The notes under the pieces: model-generated | Seen by the model: only the letters and a program-made list of their open reading frames with translations | Databases searched by the model: none | Told to the model about the DNA's origin: nothing | Assembly (NCBI GenBank): GCA_001874365.1 | Contig: MPDF01000023.1 | Location: 1-33,060 of the forward strand | Reading direction: 5' to 3' | Length of the DNA: 33,060 bases | From: Gammaproteobacteria bacterium MedPE | GTDB taxonomy: Bacteria; Pseudomonadota; Gammaproteobacteria; Enterobacterales; Psychrobiaceae | Position numbers and translations under genes: made by a program | Part shown: in pieces, positions 422 through 33,060 of the stretch | Position numbering within the stretch: position 1 is the stretch's first letter | Layout: the number at the start of each line of letters is the position of its first letter

Positions 422-1363
422 CTAGCTTACGCCTAATTCGTTTACTTTGGCCTGAAACGTCCGTGAAACAGGCACAACAACATCATTGGATAATCGTAAC
501 AAAGTTTTTCGACCTTCTTTTTGCACGCCAACAATCGCATCCGTTGCTACCCACCAAGAGCGATGAGTCTGCAAACCTTCATAATGTTGTAGTAGTGATA
601 ATGCGTCTTTAAAGCGCATTAATGTGAGGTGCTCACCGCGTGATGTATAAATTCGTAGATAATGGTCGTCCATCTCTAAACATAATAATTTGCCGCGTTT
701 TTCTAGCGGCACTTTTGCCATTAATTCATCAAGTTGTTGATTTGAGCTGTTGGCGATAGTGAGCTTTTGTTCAGCTAACATTTTTTGTGAATGAGCTAAT
801 TGCTCACGTTGTTGACCGATGAGTTGTCGCATCAGACTAATGATTGTAATGACACCGCCAATTAATGAGGTTTGAATAAAGGCTGAGCCAACTTGTGACA
901 AGTAATCAATCGTGACATTAAAAAAAAGTGCACTTAGTAGTGGCACTACAAAGCTCATGATTACACTCGCTATTAACGCGCCGATCGCAATACGTTGCCA
1001 TCGTTGCTTAATTTTTTTTGTTAAAAATTGATCTGATATGTCTATCATTGGTGAGTAAATAACATAACCAATGACACAGGTTAAAATCCAAAATGACAAG
1101 GCTATTGGCAGTGCAATATCGACCATGCCAAAAGGCGCTAACAGGCCAATGATTGACCCTGCAACCACCATCGAAATGATTCCCTGAAGAAAATTCTTTT
1201 CTTTAAAGATAATCAAAAGTAATTGAATTTTATTGTTTATTTCACGATTCGCCAATTGCACACTGCCTGTTTTGGGTTCATTCACGAATTTAACGTGTTG
1301 TTTTACGTAAAGTCGCTGTCGATAGTATCTGAAGTATTTTATCGTTTTTCTCAAGCAGCGCAA
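422..1363 (-). CDS. Membrane-anchored LytTR-family transcriptional regulator
   Basis: The C-terminal ~95 residues form a LytTR DNA-binding domain (LLCLEMDDHYLRIYTSRG, then the RSWWVATDAIVG and VPVSRTFQAKV regions). The N-terminal half carries four predicted membrane helices, followed by a short likely coiled coil (REQLAHSQKMLAEQKL). This suggests a one-component regulator that senses a membrane signal and binds DNA directly, with no response-receiver domain. The start is uncertain. The outer limit, 1363, is a TTG without a clear ribosome-binding site. An in-frame GTG at 1261 and an ATG at 1171 are alternatives, and the ATG has a good AGGGA nine bases upstream but would begin inside the first helix. 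The gene is divergent from the DUF2141/carotenoid-oxygenase operon and is the obvious candidate to control it; that is inference from position. Confidence 0.8.
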   Translation of the reverse strand: MRCLRKTIKYFRYYRQRLYVKQHVKFVNEPKTGSVQLANREINNKIQLLLIIFKEKNFLQGIISMVVAGSIIGLLAPFGMVDIALPIALSFWILTCVIGYVIYSPMIDISDQFLTKKIKQRWQRIAIGALIASVIMSFVVPLLSALFFNVTIDYLSQVGSAFIQTSLIGGVITIISLMRQLIGQQREQLAHSQKMLAEQKLTIANSSNQQLDELMAKVPLEKRGKLLCLEMDDHYLRIYTSRGEHLTLMRFKDALSLLQHYEGLQTHRSWWVATDAIVGVQKEGRKTLLRLSNDVVVPVSRTFQAKVNELGVS

Positions 1364-1419
1364 TGACGAGTTTTAAAAAGTAAATTGCGTGTTTATTAAT
1401 GTTAACTAGGAGAGCGAAA

Positions 1420-1842
1420 ATGAATAAATTGATGACAACAATGATGATGGCATCATTAATAAGTACGTCGGTAGTAAGTCATGAATTAACGTTTTCAATG
1501 AAAGCGGTGAAAAAGAATCAAGGTAAGATTTACGTTGCGTTATTTAAGGGCGAGGAAAGCTATCAAAATCGCAATGCACACTCGTCGGTTATCGTTGATG
1601 CTGACAATGACATTATTAATGTGACTTTTAGTCATTTACCTAAAGGAGAATATGCCATTCGTTATTTTCACGATCTCAATGACAATGGAAAATTGGACGT
1701 TAACTTATTTGGTAGTCCGTTAGAGGGCATTGGATTTTCTAATAACGCAAAACCAAGTTATGGACCTGTCGGTTATGATGGCGCTAAATTTATGCTTTCT
1801 AAAGATCTTGTTAATGAATCGACAGTGATTTACGGAGAGTAA
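1420..1842 (+). CDS. DUF2141 secreted protein
   Basis: This 140-residue protein has a Sec-type signal peptide (MNKLMTTMMMASLISTSVVS) and one DUF2141 domain, recognisable from LTFSMKAVKKNQGKIYVALF, the GEYAIRYFHDLNDNGKLD block and the GPVGYDGAKF end. The frame opens at an ATG at 1399, but 1420 is preferred because AGGAG lies at 1408-1412. DUF2141 has no established biochemical role; from memory it often sits next to carotenoid genes, which fits the gene that begins one base after this stop. Its product is expected in the periplasm, as is that of the next gene. It is the first gene of the operon that diverges from the LytTR regulator. Confidence 0.87.
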   Translation: MNKLMTTMMMASLISTSVVSHELTFSMKAVKKNQGKIYVALFKGEESYQNRNAHSSVIVDADNDIINVTFSHLPKGEYAIRYFHDLNDNGKLDVNLFGSPLEGIGFSNNAKPSYGPVGYDGAKFMLSKDLVNESTVIYGE

Positions 1843-5257: not shown

Positions 5258-6943
5258 TTGCGCTTTATCATCCCAATTGAGTATCGCCCCGTGAGCAGCC
5301 TGTCTTCATCGCTATTTCATCTTTATTCCCGCGATGTAAGTGATATTAGTCTTCCTGATAAGTTTACCTTTCCTTTTTTCTATCAGCCTCATCCTCTTGC
5401 CATTGCCGCGAGCGATCAGCTACAACAATGGCTATCAGGTGAGGGGCGCTCATTGCATGATTTTGATAACGACGGCAAAATGTTCGGCGTGCTGGTGGTA
5501 CGTGATGCTCAGGGAGAGCTTGGCTTTCTGGCGGCTTATTCGGGGCAAACGCTAAAACCTGAGTTATCAAAACTCAATGTTGGCTTTTGTCCAATGATAA
5601 GTCTTGGCGGTGATAAGCAAAGCGCCGTTGAGCAATTGGCTATCAATGAGATGAATAGCGATATAGCGCACAAAGAAGCCAACCCACTTATCGAGCAACT
5701 GGCCACGCAGATCAAAGAAGCTGAACAATCTTTTTCTGAGCAGATCAGCGCGTGGCAAGCACAAATGGCGGATAATCGTGAAGCGCGGAAAGCGCAGCGT
5801 GCCACTGCCGATGAAGATTTGTTAAAAACACTAGCTCAGCAAAGCGTTGATGATAAAAACACACTACGAGATTTAAAACTAGAGGCGCAAAAAACGTTAG
5901 CAGAATTACGACTGCAATATAGCGTGTTAGTGGACGAGTTAAATCAGCTAAAAGAATCCCGTAAGCAACGTTCTAATGATTTACAGCAGTATTTATTTGC
6001 TAAGTATCAGCTACTTAATGCGAACGGCGAAACACGTGATATGAATGAGCTCTTTGCAACGACAGCGCAGCGCGTACCGCCGTCAGGCTCTGGAGATTGT
6101 GCAGCGCCAAAGCTGTTACAAACGGCCTATCAGATGAAGCTTACGCCTATTGCTCTGAGCGAATTTTGGTGGGGAAAAGCGCCTGATTCGCAAGTACGTC
6201 AACACAAGCAGATGTATCCGGCGTGTATCGGTAAATGCCAGCCTATTTTAAATTACATGCTGCAAGGGCTTGAAGTGGATGAAGATCCATTGCAGCAACT
6301 TGGCAATGACTCAGCTGATCTCGATATTGTGCATGAAGAAGCGTCATTTTTGGTGATTAACAAGCCATCTGGTTTGTTATCAATACCGGGACGACATGTG
6401 CACGATAGTGTGAAAACTCGCATTCGCGCCATGTATCCCAATGCCCGTGGGGGTTTAATTGTTCATCGTTTAGATATGGCGACGTCGGGATTAATGCTCA
6501 TTGCGCTAAACGAGCGTGCGCAAAAGAATTTCCAGCATCAATTTATTAAGCGCACTGTTCATAAGCAATATGTGGCTATTGTTGATGGTGTGCTTGATAG
6601 CGAGCTTGGTTGTGAAGGTGAAATAGACTTGCCACTGTGTAATGATTTTGAAGACAGACCACGGCAAAAGGTGTGCGTTGTTGAAGGTAAATCCGCTCAT
6701 ACCAAGTGGCAAATTGCTAAAAAGGAGAATGGCCGAACATGGCTAAATTTATGGCCTGTGACTGGTCGAACTCATCAGTTACGTGTGCATTGTGCTCATC
6801 ATCAAGGGCTTAACACCGCTATTGTCGGGGATGATTTATATGGTAATAGTGATGCACGATTGATGTTACATGCGCAGCGCATAGAGTTTAATCATCCGTT
6901 GACGAAAAAACCTTTGGTGTTTGAAGTTCTGGCGCCTTTTTAA
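5258..6943 (+). CDS. Long RluA-family pseudouridine synthase with N-terminal coiled coil and Cys-containing domain
   Basis: The C-terminal ~210 residues are an RluA-type pseudouridine synthase: VINKPSGLLSIPG, then VHRLDMATSGLML with the catalytic Asp406, then WPVTGRTHQLRVH. It should isomerise uridine in rRNA or tRNA. The N-terminal ~350 residues are unlike E. coli RluA (about 220 aa). They contain an N-terminal block (FTFPFFYQPHPLA, GKMFGVLVV), a charged, probably coiled-coil stretch at about residues 130-245, and a conserved-looking segment with C281 (SGSGDCAAPKLL) and YPACIGKCQPIL (C323, C327). I recall comparable ~560-residue proteins in Vibrio and Shewanella relatives. The start is uncertain: the frame opens at a TTG at 5258, with a GTG at 5291 as an alternative, and neither has a strong ribosome-binding site. 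The RNA target is unknown. Confidence 0.88.
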   Translation: MRFIIPIEYRPVSSLSSSLFHLYSRDVSDISLPDKFTFPFFYQPHPLAIAASDQLQQWLSGEGRSLHDFDNDGKMFGVLVVRDAQGELGFLAAYSGQTLKPELSKLNVGFCPMISLGGDKQSAVEQLAINEMNSDIAHKEANPLIEQLATQIKEAEQSFSEQISAWQAQMADNREARKAQRATADEDLLKTLAQQSVDDKNTLRDLKLEAQKTLAELRLQYSVLVDELNQLKESRKQRSNDLQQYLFAKYQLLNANGETRDMNELFATTAQRVPPSGSGDCAAPKLLQTAYQMKLTPIALSEFWWGKAPDSQVRQHKQMYPACIGKCQPILNYMLQGLEVDEDPLQQLGNDSADLDIVHEEASFLVINKPSGLLSIPGRHVHDSVKTRIRAMYPNARGGLIVHRLDMATSGLMLIALNERAQKNFQHQFIKRTVHKQYVAIVDGVLDSELGCEGEIDLPLCNDFEDRPRQKVCVVEGKSAHTKWQIAKKENGRTWLNLWPVTGRTHQLRVHCAHHQGLNTAIVGDDLYGNSDARLMLHAQRIEFNHPLTKKPLVFEVLAPF

Positions 6944-17653: not shown

Positions 17654-18235
17654 CTATTTGTCTTTTTGTGGCGTTGTAGCTTTCAAACGTTGTTGCAATA
17701 AATGATCTTTAACATAAGCATTCATTTTACGTTCGACGGCAAGACGCTCACTTTCAGTCATTTGTTGTTGAATATCAGCAGACGTTTGCGGCGTCTGATG
17801 ACTTACCGGCGATGCATAACCACCTGTAGGAATAGTTTGCAGTACAGGAATATCTTGCTCTGTGCCTTGATTTGATTGTAGTTGAATCGCACTAACAACC
17901 ATGACAGCAGCAACAGAAGCAGCAATACCATAAGATCCAAAACGATCAAATAACGAGACAACATTTCCACTCGGTTTACTTTGAGTTTCTACGGTTTTAT
18001 CAACATTCGTTTTAGGCGCTAAAATAGCGGGTTCTTGGGCAATAGCAGCTGAAACACTGCTTGCAAAATCAGCTGTAAAAGCAGGCGCTAATTCTTCACG
18101 AATTGCATCACCAATCAAATGATAACGTTCAAAATCTTTAGCACTTTCAACATCATTGATTAACTTATCAAGCTCTGTTGCTGAAAGCTCTTGTCCATCA
18201 GTAAATGATGACAATATTTCTTTATTATTTGACAC
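17654..18235 (-). CDS. rseA: Anti-sigma-E factor RseA
   Basis: RseA is a single-pass inner-membrane protein that holds sigma E inactive until it is cut by DegS and RseP. The 193-residue protein has the N-terminal cytoplasmic sigma-binding domain (LSSFTDGQELSATELDKL, ERYHLIGDAIREEL), a membrane helix at about residues 102-120 (SYGIAASVAAVMVVSAI) and a short periplasmic tail ending in basic residues. It starts 12 bases after the rpoE stop, so sigma and anti-sigma factors are made from the same message. Confidence 0.95.
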   Translation of the reverse strand: MSNNKEILSSFTDGQELSATELDKLINDVESAKDFERYHLIGDAIREELAPAFTADFASSVSAAIAQEPAILAPKTNVDKTVETQSKPSGNVVSLFDRFGSYGIAASVAAVMVVSAIQLQSNQGTEQDIPVLQTIPTGGYASPVSHQTPQTSADIQQQMTESERLAVERKMNAYVKDHLLQQRLKATTPQKDK

Positions 18236-18247
18236 TATAACTACCTT

Positions 18248-18826
18248 CTATCGTTGCATTAGTGGATCGATTTGCTTGTCCAACGCTTCTCGAGCCCTAA
18301 AAATACGCGAACGAACTGTCCCGACAGGACACTCCATTACATTAGCAATATCTTCATAACTTAACCCATCTAATTCACGCAGCGTAATCGCTGTCCGTAA
18401 ATCTTCTGGTAACTTCTCAAGTGTAGCAACCACTACACTTTGTAATTCATCAGTTAATAGCAATCGCTCGGGTGATGCTCCTTCTCTGAGTTCATCACCA
18501 CCATCAAAATACTCGCCATCTTCAATATCAATATCTGAACTTGATGGTCGGCGTTTTTGTGCCACTAAATAATTTTTAGCCGTATTAACCGCTATTCTGT
18601 ACAACCACGTATAAAACGCACTATCACCGCGAAAATTTGGTAGTGCTCGATATGCTTTAATGAATGCTTCTTGCGCAACATCAGGCACATCACCTTGATT
18701 CTTTACAAAACGACTAACTAAATTTAATACCTTGTGTTGGTATTTTCTGACTAAAAGATCAAAAGCGGCTTTATTGCCTTGCTGTACTAACTCAACTAAC
18801 TGCTGATCTGTTTTTGTTTCGCTCAT
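18248..18826 (-). CDS. rpoE: RNA polymerase sigma factor RpoE (sigma E, sigma-24)
   Basis: RpoE directs transcription of envelope-stress genes. The 192-residue length equals that of E. coli RpoE (191) within one residue. Region 2 is seen in FDLLVRKYQHKVLNLV and DVAQEAFIKAYRALPNF through FYTWLYRIAVNTAKNYL; region 4 is seen in LPEDLRTAITLRELDGLSYE and GTVRSRIFRAREAL. It is the first gene of the rpoE-rseABC operon, with nadB divergent upstream, as in E. coli. A sigma-E-type promoter about 60-90 bases before its ATG suggests autoregulation. Confidence 0.97.
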   Translation of the reverse strand: MSETKTDQQLVELVQQGNKAAFDLLVRKYQHKVLNLVSRFVKNQGDVPDVAQEAFIKAYRALPNFRGDSAFYTWLYRIAVNTAKNYLVAQKRRPSSSDIDIEDGEYFDGGDELREGASPERLLLTDELQSVVVATLEKLPEDLRTAITLRELDGLSYEDIANVMECPVGTVRSRIFRAREALDKQIDPLMQR

Positions 18827-28984: not shown

Positions 28985-31078
28985 ATGAAAATTAACCCAT
29001 TACTTGTATCCCTGTGCTTATCTGCTGGACTAGCCAGCATGACGGTTAACGCCAGCGAACAAAAAACAATTATGGAAATTCAAGGAACAGGAAGTAACTC
29101 CCCTTTTGTTGATATAGGCAATAAAGAATACCAATCAAAAGATACCTTTCAAGTAACTGGGGTTATAACCCATATTCAAGCTAAAGACCTCGGACGCGAT
29201 ATTCCAAGCGGCTTATATATTCAAGACGCTAAAGGCGACAACAACCCTGCAACCTCAGATGGTTTGTTTGTGTCTTTCGATTCTAAAGCATTGGCCGCAT
29301 TACCACTTCAGCTTGGTCAAACGATTACCGCAACCGGAAAGATCAAAGAAGCCTATAACTGGACACAGCTAGTTGCACAAGATGTTTCAATTAGCGGTGA
29401 TACAATTAAAATAATACCGGCAATGCCCGTTATTCTATTAGAAACTGACAATAGTCTAAAAGATACACTTGAGCGTTATGAAGGAATGCGCGTTACACTG
29501 GCTAGCAATAATAATTTAATAGTTAGTCGTAATTTTGGTTATGATCGAAATGTACGCCGCAATAATTTGGCACTCTCAGTTGGTTCTATTAATATGCAAC
29601 CAAATCAGCAGTTTGCTCCTAGTTCACAAGATTCAAAACAGCAAGCTAGCCAAATTAAAAATAACGAACTCATCATAGAATCTTTTAATAAAGCGCCCGC
29701 AGGAAAAATCCCTTGGTACCCATCATTCGCCCAAAGTACAAATGGAGTCGATTATGACTACATTCGCATTGGTGATTCTGTTGCAGAATTAACTGGCGTA
29801 GTTGGTTATTCCCACAATAATTTCCGCCTATTTGTACAAAACAAAGCGACTAAGGATAACTTCAAACATAACAATCCACGCACAGCAGCACCGACGCTCA
29901 AAGATGGTGATATCAAAGTAGCAACCTTCAATGTATTAAATTATTTTAATTCTCCATTTGGCGGTGATAAAAACCCATTGGGGCAAAATCGCGGTGCTAA
30001 AACCCTCGAAGAATTCTCAATGCAACGTGCAAAGATTGTTAAAGCGATTATAGCCCTTGACGCTGACATTATTGGATTGATGGAAATTGAAAACAATGGC
30101 ACGCAAAGTAACTCTGCATTGAAAGACTTAATTTCTCATGTCAATCAAGAGCTGCCGTTAGATAAGCAATATACCTTTGCGAGCAATAATGAAAAATATA
30201 ACGGAACAGGCGCTATCACTTCACAAGTTATCTATCGTGGAGAAGAAATGTCCTTGACTAACTATCAAGTGATTACCATGCCGCAACAGGATGCCCCCGC
30301 TATTGGCAAAGAAAATGGCAAAAATTTTATGCGTAATGCCGTTACGCCAACGTTTAAACTCAAAGACAGTGGTGAGTTACTAACGATTTCGGTCAATCAC
30401 TTTAAATCTAAAGGCTCTACCTGTTGGGAAGATGTTGCCTTGCAAAATAATAAAGACATTGATCATCAAGGCAGTTGCGAACACTTTCGTGTCTCAGGTG
30501 CTTATCATTTAGGTCAAGCACTCGAAAAAATCGACGGCCATAAATTAATTATTGGTGACCTTAATTCTTATGCACTAGAAGATCCACTTGCAGTATTAAC
30601 AAACCGTCAGCATCTACCAAAATCCTATGACCTTCGTGCCGCTAGAGATACATTTATTGGTGGTGATTCAGCAAAGGGAAAATTATTACATGGTGAAAAT
30701 GGTGCTGTTATCAAGCAATCTTTTGGTTACATCAATACCATTCGTAAACTACACCCTGAAGCATTTGGCTACAGTTTTTCAAACGTTGTTGGTACCTTAG
30801 ATTACATTTTGGCATCACCGTCGCTTGCTGATCATATTGTCGATGCTACTGAGTGGAATATCAACTCACCAGAATCAACATTATTTGAATATGGCACACG
30901 TTATACCGGCGATATGAAAAAATACGCCGATGTTTATCGTTCGTCTGATCATGATCCTGTCATCATTTCGCTAAACTTTAACAAACCTTCAAAAGACAAT
31001 AGCGGTAATACTGGTATTGCTGTTTTATTATTAAGTTTAGGTCTTTTGATCCGCCGCCAATTATATCAATTGCATTAA
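28985..31078 (+). CDS. ExeM/NucH family extracellular endonuclease
   Basis: The 697-residue protein is a secreted DNase of the ExeM/NucH family, which degrades extracellular DNA in biofilms and for phosphate. It has a signal peptide (cut near VNASEQ), an N-terminal OB-fold region (FQVTGVITHIQ, GLYIQDAKGDN), then an endonuclease-exonuclease-phosphatase domain with TFNVLNYF, LMEIENNG, VNHFKSKGSTC, IGDLNSY, GTLDYILASPSL and SSDHDPVIISL. Asn, Glu, Asp/Asn and His catalytic positions are all present. The C-terminus (SGNTGIAVLLLSLGLLIRRQ) looks like a degenerate GlyGly-CTERM sorting tail used by rhombosortase. The last five residues, LYQLH, and the stop come from an interspersed repeat. A bidirectional terminator follows. 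Confidence 0.93.
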   Translation: MKINPLLVSLCLSAGLASMTVNASEQKTIMEIQGTGSNSPFVDIGNKEYQSKDTFQVTGVITHIQAKDLGRDIPSGLYIQDAKGDNNPATSDGLFVSFDSKALAALPLQLGQTITATGKIKEAYNWTQLVAQDVSISGDTIKIIPAMPVILLETDNSLKDTLERYEGMRVTLASNNNLIVSRNFGYDRNVRRNNLALSVGSINMQPNQQFAPSSQDSKQQASQIKNNELIIESFNKAPAGKIPWYPSFAQSTNGVDYDYIRIGDSVAELTGVVGYSHNNFRLFVQNKATKDNFKHNNPRTAAPTLKDGDIKVATFNVLNYFNSPFGGDKNPLGQNRGAKTLEEFSMQRAKIVKAIIALDADIIGLMEIENNGTQSNSALKDLISHVNQELPLDKQYTFASNNEKYNGTGAITSQVIYRGEEMSLTNYQVITMPQQDAPAIGKENGKNFMRNAVTPTFKLKDSGELLTISVNHFKSKGSTCWEDVALQNNKDIDHQGSCEHFRVSGAYHLGQALEKIDGHKLIIGDLNSYALEDPLAVLTNRQHLPKSYDLRAARDTFIGGDSAKGKLLHGENGAVIKQSFGYINTIRKLHPEAFGYSFSNVVGTLDYILASPSLADHIVDATEWNINSPESTLFEYGTRYTGDMKKYADVYRSSDHDPVIISLNFNKPSKDNSGNTGIAVLLLSLGLLIRRQLYQLH

Positions 31079-31234: not shown

Positions 31235-31684
31235 TTAACGAATTAAACTATCAACGGATGCTTTACCACCGCCATGCTTAATCAAGTAAAGTAATGGCAC
31301 CAACCACATGATATGAGTCGGCCAAGCATCTGGGTAAACAAATATTTGAATAACTAATGTCATGCCTAATAGCGCAATAGCACTTAAGCGTGTGAACAAT
31401 CCGAGAATAATTGCACCCCCTAAGAAAAACTCTCCATAAGTCGCTAGATAAGCGGCAATATCACTCGGAATGATTGGCAGCTCATATTCATATTCAAACA
31501 ACGTAAACGTCGAGTCTGACACATTAAAAAACTGCCACTTCTGCCCTAAAATAGTACTGCCATCTATTTTAGTTTGTGCACTACGCCAAAATACTAGCCC
31601 CACTGCAATACGTGCAACAAGGGCAATGATATCTTCTGGGATCTTACTACATAACTGGTTGAGTGATTCTAAGAGACTTTTCAT
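31235..31684 (-). CDS. DoxX family membrane protein (HvfD/BufD-like position)
   Basis: The 149-residue protein is a DoxX-family membrane protein with four helices: IALVARIAVGLVFWRSAQTK, IAAYLATYGEFFLGGAIILG, LSAIALLGMTLVIQIFVYP and HIMWLVPLLYLIK. The role of DoxX proteins is poorly defined; relatives occur as the last gene of MNIO/DUF2063 operons (GigD in gold-induced operons). The frame opens at 31702, but the ATG at 31684 has AAGG eight bases upstream and is preferred; the DUF2063 gene ends 10 bases before it. It is probably an accessory to the peptide-modifying pair or to metal handling at the membrane. Confidence 0.9.
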   Translation of the reverse strand: MKSLLESLNQLCSKIPEDIIALVARIAVGLVFWRSAQTKIDGSTILGQKWQFFNVSDSTFTLFEYEYELPIIPSDIAAYLATYGEFFLGGAIILGLFTRLSAIALLGMTLVIQIFVYPDAWPTHIMWLVPLLYLIKHGGGKASVDSLIR

Positions 31685-31694
31685 AATCTTTACC

Positions 31695-32525
31695 TTATGC
31701 ATTGATTTTAAATGCGCTTAATATTTCTAAACTAAATAAGTAACCTAACATCGCACCAAGTTCACTCTCATCAAGTTCTCTTTGAGCATTGTTAGCATCT
31801 TCTAGAGTCGCTTGCCAAGCTTCTCCTATGGTTTTATTAAGGTTTAACTGCTGTAATAAACAAAAGCAATTTTCCTCTAAATTAACTATTTGAACGTTAT
31901 AGCCTTCGCGAAAAATAGCTAAATGCGCTGTTTGGCAATCATCAAGGTTAATAACTTGCTGCTCTTCTTGCTGATTTTGACGCCAAATTTCATCAATCGG
32001 CCATGATGAAGACATTAAGATCAATGAAGGTATGCATGTAAAACTCACCTCAGCTAATTGCTCTGGCACAACACACGCGAGCTGTTGAGGATCTAAAATA
32101 CGACTATCAGCCGCGTGATAAGCTTGATTGTAATTAAACTCCAATAAAGCAACATCGGCTAAAAAAGGTAAATGTTGACACGGTGGATAGTCACCAATAA
32201 ATTCACTAAACTCTTCACCGTAATGTAACAGCGCCGCGTGTTTAGGCTGGCATTTACGAACAAACTCAATTGCCGCGCCTTTAAAACAAGCTTCTCCGAC
32301 GAGCCTTTTAATAACAGGATACAAGTCAGCGAGTGCTGTCGTTAACGAGTGCATGACATTGTTACGATAAATGGCTAATCGCAACTTCGCTTCATCATCT
32401 GCATCAGTTAATTCACTTTTAGCTTCAAACAAACTCATCAATTGATGGCAATCATCATCCACAGAATCAGATAACAAACTGTGCTCCATCAACGTTTGAA
32501 ATTGCTGTAAACTTGGCTTACTCAT
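31695..32525 (-). CDS. DUF2063 protein (BufC/HvfC/GigC-like MNIO partner)
   Basis: The 276-residue product starts with the DUF2063 domain seen in partners of DUF692/MNIO enzymes: KLRLAIYRNNVMHSLTTALA, LYPVIKRLVGE and YPPCQHLPFLADVALLEFNY. The family was first named putative DNA-binding, but in characterised ribosomal-peptide pathways the partner binds the precursor leader and is needed for modification. The C-terminal half is more variable. Its ATG overlaps the MNIO gene stop by eight bases (within ATGAGTAA), so the two proteins are translationally coupled. Confidence 0.88.
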   Translation of the reverse strand: MSKPSLQQFQTLMEHSLLSDSVDDDCHQLMSLFEAKSELTDADDEAKLRLAIYRNNVMHSLTTALADLYPVIKRLVGEACFKGAAIEFVRKCQPKHAALLHYGEEFSEFIGDYPPCQHLPFLADVALLEFNYNQAYHAADSRILDPQQLACVVPEQLAEVSFTCIPSLILMSSSWPIDEIWRQNQQEEQQVINLDDCQTAHLAIFREGYNVQIVNLEENCFCLLQQLNLNKTIGEAWQATLEDANNAQRELDESELGAMLGYLFSLEILSAFKINA

Positions 32526-33060
32526 AAGAAGTCATCTCAATCTCTGTTCTCTCTAGATAACTATTGGCAATGTCAGCTTGCTCTGCAAGTTCTCCCCATG
32601 AAGGAACATCATTATCCCATTCAATCAGTGTTGGCTTAGCACCTACTTTCTTTAACGTGTATTGATAGAGTGCCCACACTGCTTCACATACTTTAGAACC
32701 ATGATCGTCAATGCGAATTTCTTTATCAAGCATTGCCTGAACACTGTGTCCCGCAAGGTGAATCTCACCAACGGAAGCGGGTGAAATAGCATCAATATAT
32801 TCTTTAGCATCAAAGCCGTGATTCATCGCACTCACATAAACATTATTAACGTCAAGTAAGACGCCACATCCTGATTGCTGCGCTATTGCGACTAAGAATT
32901 CAGATTCAGAAAACTCATTGTAATTTAGCTCAAAATAACTCGATGGATTTTCAATTAAAATCTGGCGACCTAATACATCTTGAGTATGGGAAATATTATC
33001 AACAAACACCTTCAACGATTCTTGTGTATAAGGCATTGGCAACAAATCATTTAAACTATG
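32518..33060 (-). CDS. DUF692/MNIO family oxidative peptide-modifying enzyme (BufB/HvfB/GigB-like), C-terminal part
   Basis: The frame is open to the right edge, so the N-terminal portion is missing; the visible 180 residues begin HSLNDLLPMPYT, the conserved LNDLLP region. MNIO enzymes are TIM barrels with two or three irons that oxidise cysteines or other residues in a precursor peptide (oxazolone, thiooxazole or related products). Likely metal-ligand segments are ILIENPSSYFE, GVLLDVNNVYVSAMNHGF, EIHLAGHS, IDDHGSKV and LIEWDNDVPSW. Together with the overlapping DUF2063 gene and the DoxX gene it matches the B-C-D genes of bufferin, Hvf and GIG operons. The precursor gene (DUF2282-like, Cys-containing) should be upstream, outside the window. 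Confidence 0.92.
   Translation of the reverse strand, partial: HSLNDLLPMPYTQESLKVFVDNISHTQDVLGRQILIENPSSYFELNYNEFSESEFLVAIAQQSGCGVLLDVNNVYVSAMNHGFDAKEYIDAISPASVGEIHLAGHSVQAMLDKEIRIDDHGSKVCEAVWALYQYTLKKVGAKPTLIEWDNDVPSWGELAEQADIANSYLERTEIEMTSYE

Follow-up and report, generated by a model that had tools for sequence, protein, structure and literature searches.

A Buf1-type bufferin operon cut by a contig end in Gammaproteobacteria bacterium MedPE and a candidate sigma factor for its control

Three genes at the contig end

The window analysed here is the whole of contig MPDF01000023.1 (C97; 33,060 b) of Gammaproteobacteria bacterium MedPE (genome G000), a fragmented assembly of 180 contigs that is 81% complete; the cut at its edge is thus a cut in the assembly. 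Three genes lie at that end, all on the minus strand: the 3′ part of a bufB-like gene for an MNIO (DUF692) maturase (32518–33060, 180 codons, open at the contig end), a bufC-like gene for a DUF2063 partner protein of PME type 1 (31695–32525, 276 aa) and a bufD-like gene for a DoxX membrane protein (31235–31684, 149 aa from the ATG at 31684). The locus is very probably the 3′ part of a canonical Buf1 (DUF2282) bufferin operon, a group of genes for a peptide that is modified at its cysteines and chelates copper.

A sequence-only reading of this DNA had placed the genes close together, and its spacing was confirmed. The MNIO and DUF2063 frames share 8 bp (32518–32525), and 10 bp (31685–31694) separate the DUF2063 stop codon from the DoxX ATG at 31684; if the alternative in-frame ATG at 31702 were used, the DoxX protein would have 155 aa and its gene would overlap the DUF2063 gene by 8 bp. 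As the neighbouring gene, for a nuclease of ExeM/NucH type (28985–31078, plus strand), is convergent with the operon, DoxX is its last gene. The same reading had taken the operon to be cut by the edge, and the sequence indeed ends inside the MNIO gene. Judged from orthologs, the MNIO fragment is without approximately its first 112 codons, and approximately the first 98 positions of the PF05114 profile are missing from it.

The missing MNIO 5′ end and the precursor gene were not found elsewhere in the G000 assembly, either by DNA searches or by searches with a precursor protein. A 901-b query from the nearest relative, G007, which comprised the precursor gene and the MNIO start, matched the final 66 b of the window; its only other matches were a dispersed repeat and some short, weak ones. 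The G007 precursor protein had its sole match in a second, different Buf1 operon on contig C132 (L047, 4147–4428), which is preceded by genes for a YHS-like and a thioredoxin-like protein (by eye). The dispersed repeat, with the ends GGGCCTGTTGATCTTT and AAAGATCAACAGGCCC, resembles a small mobile element; one copy lies at approximately 6360–6580 of locus L035, and eight further matches below 1e-6 were obtained in G000. Since five of these eight copies are no more than 60 nt away from the end of a contig, the repeat probably breaks the assembly.

The MNIO fragment matched PF05114 of Pfam with an E-value of 1.3e-63 (profile positions 99–262 of 263). Its best NCBIfam model was NF050167 (MNIO_BufB), with 232.9 bits against a cut-off of 310, approximately 98 of the 262 positions being missing. 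The full-length ortholog from G007 passed this equivalog cut-off with 373 bits and scored below the cut-offs of the HvfB, ChrH, ApyH and MbnB models. For NF003818 (HvfB, cut-off 360) the fragment reached 162 bits and the G007 ortholog 230 bits, and for TIGR04159 (MbnB, cut-off 325) the corresponding scores were 45 and 58 bits. Alignment of 14 MNIO proteins, namely the fragment, ten orthologs and three paralogs from G000, revealed 33 invariant positions in the fragment, including E37-N38, D70, N72-N73, H101, D118, H120, E147 and D149. A PDB search by sequence with the G007 enzyme gave 3bww, 8hci (DUF692 family) and entries for MbnB.

The partner protein matched PF09836 (DUF2063) at residues 9–110 (E 5e-22, 78.4 bits, cut-off 27.2) and, below the cut-off of 142, NF050145 (HvfC) at residues 43–269 (E 4.6e-14, 52.9 bits). 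Its only PDB match by sequence was a designed protein with an E-value of 0.71, which was taken as chance. The third protein was assigned to DoxX by PF07681 (E 5.5e-16, 59.4 bits, cut-off 23.6). It is 98.7% identical to its G007 ortholog, with 95.3, 100 and 60.0% identity at codon positions 1, 2 and 3, respectively, and this low identity at third positions indicates that the DoxX frame is under selection at the protein level. It is more constrained than the MNIO and DUF2063 proteins, each of which is 86% identical to its counterpart in G007 (for MNIO, over the overlap).

The precursor in related genomes and the assignment to Buf1

Of 39 genomes searched, 27 contained MNIO. We examined the ten best-scoring loci after our own, eight of which belong to the same genus and two to the same order (G011 and G036, with more distant Buf1 orthologs). 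Immediately before the MNIO gene, each of the ten has a frame of 85–89 codons with four cysteines, which ends between 1 nt inside and 12 nt before the MNIO start, and orthologs of the DUF2063 and DoxX genes follow in the same order in each. All ten products belong to PF10048/DUF2282, with E-values of 2e-23 to 3e-27 and scores above the cut-off. Their aligned core, by eye, reads EKCYG(V/I)AKA.xNDC.AG.GTSCAG(S/T)S..D.Q..AW...KG(T/S)C.K(I/L)VGGSL. No EGKCG repeat occurs in the precursors of the ten orthologous loci, and a search of the PDB with the precursor sequence gave no match. The sequence-only reading had predicted a DUF2282-like precursor of 70–120 codons that would carry a signal peptide and several cysteines; family, length and cysteines proved right throughout the relatives, and, as regards the signal peptide, computation on one of the ten precursors showed a hydrophobic N-terminal segment.

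It is the gene order and families, together with the orthologous DUF2282 precursor in all ten closest relatives, that support the assignment to Buf1, whose core consists of precursor, MNIO, DUF2063 partner and DoxX (PMC12452194). The earlier suggestion of a bufferin, Hvf or GIG-type operon is thereby upheld and narrowed, and its alternative of a different product is not favoured by a DUF2282 precursor in the relatives. The operon would be nothing unusual within a large family that is already known, with thousands of Buf1 and Buf2 precursors on record (PMC12452194), and its regulation, considered below, is the sole part that may be new.

The modification of Buf1 peptides falls on the central pair of cysteines, and the outer pair closes a disulfide; copper is chelated by the products, and improved growth under copper stress has been reported for bufferins (PMC12452194). 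Thiooxazole formation has been described for MNIO/DUF2063 pairs (PMC13097082; PMC12538549). By analogy with this published work on the class, a Sec-exported peptide of approximately 87 aa with four cysteines would be bound in the cytoplasm by the DUF2063/RRE partner, and the MNIO enzyme would convert its two central cysteines into thiooxazoles, the outer two forming a disulfide. The exported product would then chelate excess copper, while the DoxX membrane protein may have an accessory, undefined role.

Another MNIO operon of G000, on contig C48 (L046), has a precursor of 207 aa with 15 cysteines and no obvious signal peptide (1150–1770, minus strand), and this gene is preceded by one for a ferritin-like protein of PF12902. 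In length and cysteine number the precursor resembles the 'adjamnio-I' class (PMC12452194).

A shared upstream motif and a candidate sigma factor

When the 200 nt ahead of each of the ten precursors were aligned, one conserved block emerged, in the eight same-genus genomes; the sequence-only reading had not noted this block, which other MNIO operons share. It reads TGAAA-N17-GGTCTT, is of the type recognised by extracytoplasmic function (ECF) sigma factors, and lies 59–156 nt before the precursor start in all eight relatives, where 0.001 matches would be expected in that upstream space from the genome-wide density. In the nine genomes of the genus there are 51 exact matches vs. 16 for the reversed pattern. 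Twelve of the 51 precede bufferin precursors, eight of them Buf1 and four Buf2 (G000, G001, G006 and G007); three lie before a dsbC-like gene, of which one was tested as DsbC and the other two look alike by eye, and one precedes a bepA-like gene (546 bits vs. a cut-off of 570, the gene being cut by the end of the locus). As for the other 35, three lie outside frames of 130 aa (L060, L076 and L085), one at G004:C92 was left unread, and the rest either fall inside frames of this kind or repeat strings found there.

The exact motif thus occurs in four of the six Buf2 operons of the genus, and near variants precede two (N18 with GGTCTC in G004; GGTCTA in G002). In G000 itself it stands 33 nt before the Buf2 precursor start on contig C98. 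It was not found at the G000 loci on C132 (the second Buf1) and C48, of which 11.0 and 7.4 kb, respectively, were read. A longer motif, TGAAANTTNT-N12-CAGGTCTT, gave one match with two mismatches in G000 vs. two for the control. Fur- and Zur-like boxes before the ten precursors matched in at most 13 of 19 and 11 of 15 letters, at no consistent place, and were discarded.

With a spacer of N18 the motif gave 36 matches in the nine genomes vs. 27 for the reversed control. Eight of these are at sigma factor genes and three precede a gene for an outer-membrane-like protein. The gene for the latter protein (283–286 aa, assigned by eye) has TGAAA-N18-GGTCTT ahead of it in three members of the genus, G000 among them (L181, L182 and L184), and is a possible member of the same regulon.

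Thirty ECF loci other than rpoE were fetched, of which 29 gave a frame, and one orthologous group alone carried the motif: a gene for a sigma factor of approximately 170 aa, followed by one for a DUF3379 protein. The copy from G006 matched NF009170/PRK12517 (248 bits, cut-off 197). PF11859 (DUF3379) was found beside the sigma gene in all nine genomes of the genus, and a PutP-like gene follows in six of them (by eye); in G006 the pair sits behind a BatD gene. The sequence TGAAA-N18-GGTCTTG overlaps the start of the sigma gene in all eight genus genomes in which the start is present, the G000 copy being cut by a contig end. The gene starts with TTG, with a Shine-Dalgarno-like AAGG ahead of it (by eye). 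At the start of contig C27 of G007 (L158, frame 10–1446) the frame opens with VGSEMCIRDR, which we take to be translated sequencing adapter and thus probable contamination at the contig end.

Of 30 genomes of the order outside the genus, 12 have PF11859 (G024 with a weak match, unread). GAAA-N17/18-GGTC occurs shortly before a conserved ATG in all 11 sigma genes read there; the distance was measured for two of them (13 and 16 nt) and judged by eye for the remaining nine; elsewhere in the same loci there are four matches in 81,510 strand-bases. The motif lies inside a longer frame in ten of these genes, where the codon before GTC specifies T, S, A, P or Q but invariably has G as its last letter (by eye), and it is out of that longer frame in the eleventh (G023). 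Because this codon varies yet ends in G, and because the motif is out of frame in G023, we read the conservation as acting at the DNA level. Taken over the genus and the order, the pattern at the beginning of this sigma gene (L157–L164 and L196–L206) is apparently conserved as DNA across many families.

Some of the other metallophore operons of the order share the element. Among the loci read outside the genus, TGAAA-N18-GGTCT precedes EGKCG-type precursors in four of five DUF3379 genomes (G013, G023 with GGTCTA, G027 and G037, but not G038), vs. neither of the EGKCG operons of two genomes without DUF3379 (G015 and G022); in G015 a relaxed AGAAA match lies approximately 270 nt upstream. MNIO was present in 20 of 21 DUF3379 genomes vs. 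7 of 18 others (Fisher p 2.5e-4) and, outside the genus, in 11 of 12 vs. 7 of 18 (p 0.007), p values that ignore kinship and genome size.

These observations suggest, with a probability that we put at about 0.5, that the PRK12517-type sigma factor and DUF3379 as its anti-sigma factor are a dedicated regulator of Buf1, Buf2 and EGKCG metallophore operons and of periplasmic disulfide enzymes across several families of the order, reading TGAAA-N17/18-GGTCTT and autoregulated through a promoter copy at the sigma start codon. Control of these metallophore operons by the pair is our proposal, and it is inferred. Transcription of the operon studied here would start from TGAAA-N17-GGTCTT as an ECF-type promoter, read by the sigma factor encoded beside DUF3379, the candidate anti-sigma factor, and the same factor would control periplasmic thiol and envelope genes such as dsbC along with the Buf1 and Buf2 operons. 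If true, one ECF sigma/DUF3379 pair would tie separate metallophore operons of differing precursor type to a single periplasmic stress response. It would also tell when the peptides are made in species without the NrsF/SigF pair, and it is a concrete and testable regulatory prediction. A full-text literature search gave no paper for PRK12517 or DUF3379, and no report linking a PRK12517-type sigma factor with bufferins was found among the titles listed for bufferin, sigma factor and copper; most subscription papers were outside the reach of both searches.

Alternative explanations and comparison with known systems

Several observations weigh against such a regulon. In G000 the precursor and its promoter are outside the assembly, and both are inferred from relatives. 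The 30 ECF loci are a minority of the ECF-like matches, which leaves room for another sigma factor of like specificity. The spacer is N17 before the bufferins and N18 before the sigma gene, and within the genus GGTCTT, in the place of a −10 element, overlaps the TTG, so a transcript from there would be without this start codon and could not encode the whole sigma factor. Perhaps such a transcript makes DUF3379 only, as negative feedback, or the start lies elsewhere; we leave this unexplained. Outside the genus, the strict motif was found in none of six Buf1 operons of DUF3379 genomes and a relaxed one in a single case (AGAAA in G014), the Buf2 operon of G020 matches loosely, and the orthologous Buf1 operons of G011 and G036 are without the motif, both genomes being also without DUF3379. 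Relaxed matches precede MNIO genes in three genomes that have no DUF3379 (G009, G015 and G034). Finally, GAAA-N18-GGTCTT showed no overall excess over the reversed control across the 30 outside genomes, and the claim of a regulon beyond the genus therefore rests on the placement of the motif and not on its number.

As to function, the main role of the mature peptide could be defence against oxidants or against another metal, such as gold or zinc, rather than against copper. Related systems respond in this way: RpoE2 of Haemophilus influenzae induces a related DoxX cluster under hypochlorite (PMC7907618), SigF of Caulobacter controls bufferin genes under chromium stress (PMC3511200), and the GIG operon of Legionella responds to gold as well as to copper (PMC5413113). 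That the motif is shared with dsbC and a thioredoxin-like gene points the same way. Yet the reported benefit of bufferins is to growth under copper stress (PMC12452194), and we consider a main role other than copper defence possible but rather unlikely.

The motif could also be a variant sigma E promoter, with the operon a member of the classical RpoE envelope-stress regulon. The rpoE gene (18248–18826, minus strand) and rseA (17654–18235) lie in the same window, approximately 12 kb from the operon, and dsbC and bepA, which carry the motif in some genomes, are sigma E targets in E. coli. However, the upstream regions of rpoE in 11 genomes display a promoter with GAACTT (GAACTA in G011) and GTCTA one base closer, whereas GAAA and GGTCTT make up the bufferin motif, like the one at the other ECF sigma gene. 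For RpoE, published work likewise gives GAACTT, and for the ChrR-type RpoE2 of Shewanella TGATCC/CGTATT (PMC4336711); both differ from the bufferin motif, and hence neither factor fits. Control by RpoE thus appears unlikely to us. NrsF (PF06532) was absent from all nine genomes of the genus (G000 being 81% complete), with a positive Caulobacter control, and the accessible part of a report on the copper-responsive ECF factor SigAb of Acinetobacter (PMC12153292) mentions neither bufferin nor DUF692 nor DUF2282. That the operon modifies a different precursor in this species, an EGKCG/oxazolin or other peptide, is very improbable: although its own precursor lies outside the assembly and EGKCG precursors occur in MNIO operons elsewhere in the order, in other families, the nearest relative G007, 86% identical in MNIO and DUF2063 and 99% in DoxX, has a DUF2282 precursor 12 nt ahead of its MNIO gene, as do the nine next-closest loci directly upstream of theirs, and the full-length G007 enzyme passes the BufB and fails the HvfB model.

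Returning to the assignment to Buf1, one of the closest known counterparts is the Caulobacter Buf1 operon bufABCD (CC3254-3257; PMC12452194), which shares the order precursor-MNIO-DUF2063-DoxX and a BufB-type maturase with the operon described here, and the four-cysteine DUF2282 precursor with its ten closest relatives. Unlike in Caulobacter, no sigma factor or NrsF gene was seen beside the operon in the stretches read, and the motif TGAAA-N17-GGTCTT differs from the SigF promoter, GTAACC-N16-CGAA (PMC3511200). The Buf2 operon of G000 (BufA2, 6/12 Cys) has an MNIO enzyme and the same motif; its precursor (L045 on C98, 5353–5832, minus strand) is instead a duplicated one with 13 cysteines (NF050166, 141 bits, cut-off 60). 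In the 8.7 kb read around it, tblastn gave no DoxX or DUF2063 match, and a frame of 284 aa follows the MNIO gene.

MNIO, DUF2063 and DoxX partners are also found in the HvfABCX/oxazolin operon of Haemophilus, the DoxX cluster under SigE in Neisseria and the operons of EGKCG captophorins (PMC13097082; PMC7907618). The precursor of Haemophilus Hvf is, however, of the EGKCG-repeat type and that read in the relatives here is DUF2282, and the HvfB, HvfC and HvfX models all remained below their cut-offs at our locus. GIG operons of Cupriavidus and Legionella are related operons of the MNIO/DUF2063 type and are induced by gold and copper (PMC5413113). Control of such operons by ECF sigma factors has precedents in SigF of Caulobacter (PMC3511200) and in RpoE2 of Haemophilus and the SigE cluster of Neisseria (PMC7907618), and the control proposed here, by a PRK12517-type sigma factor, would be a parallel to these three.

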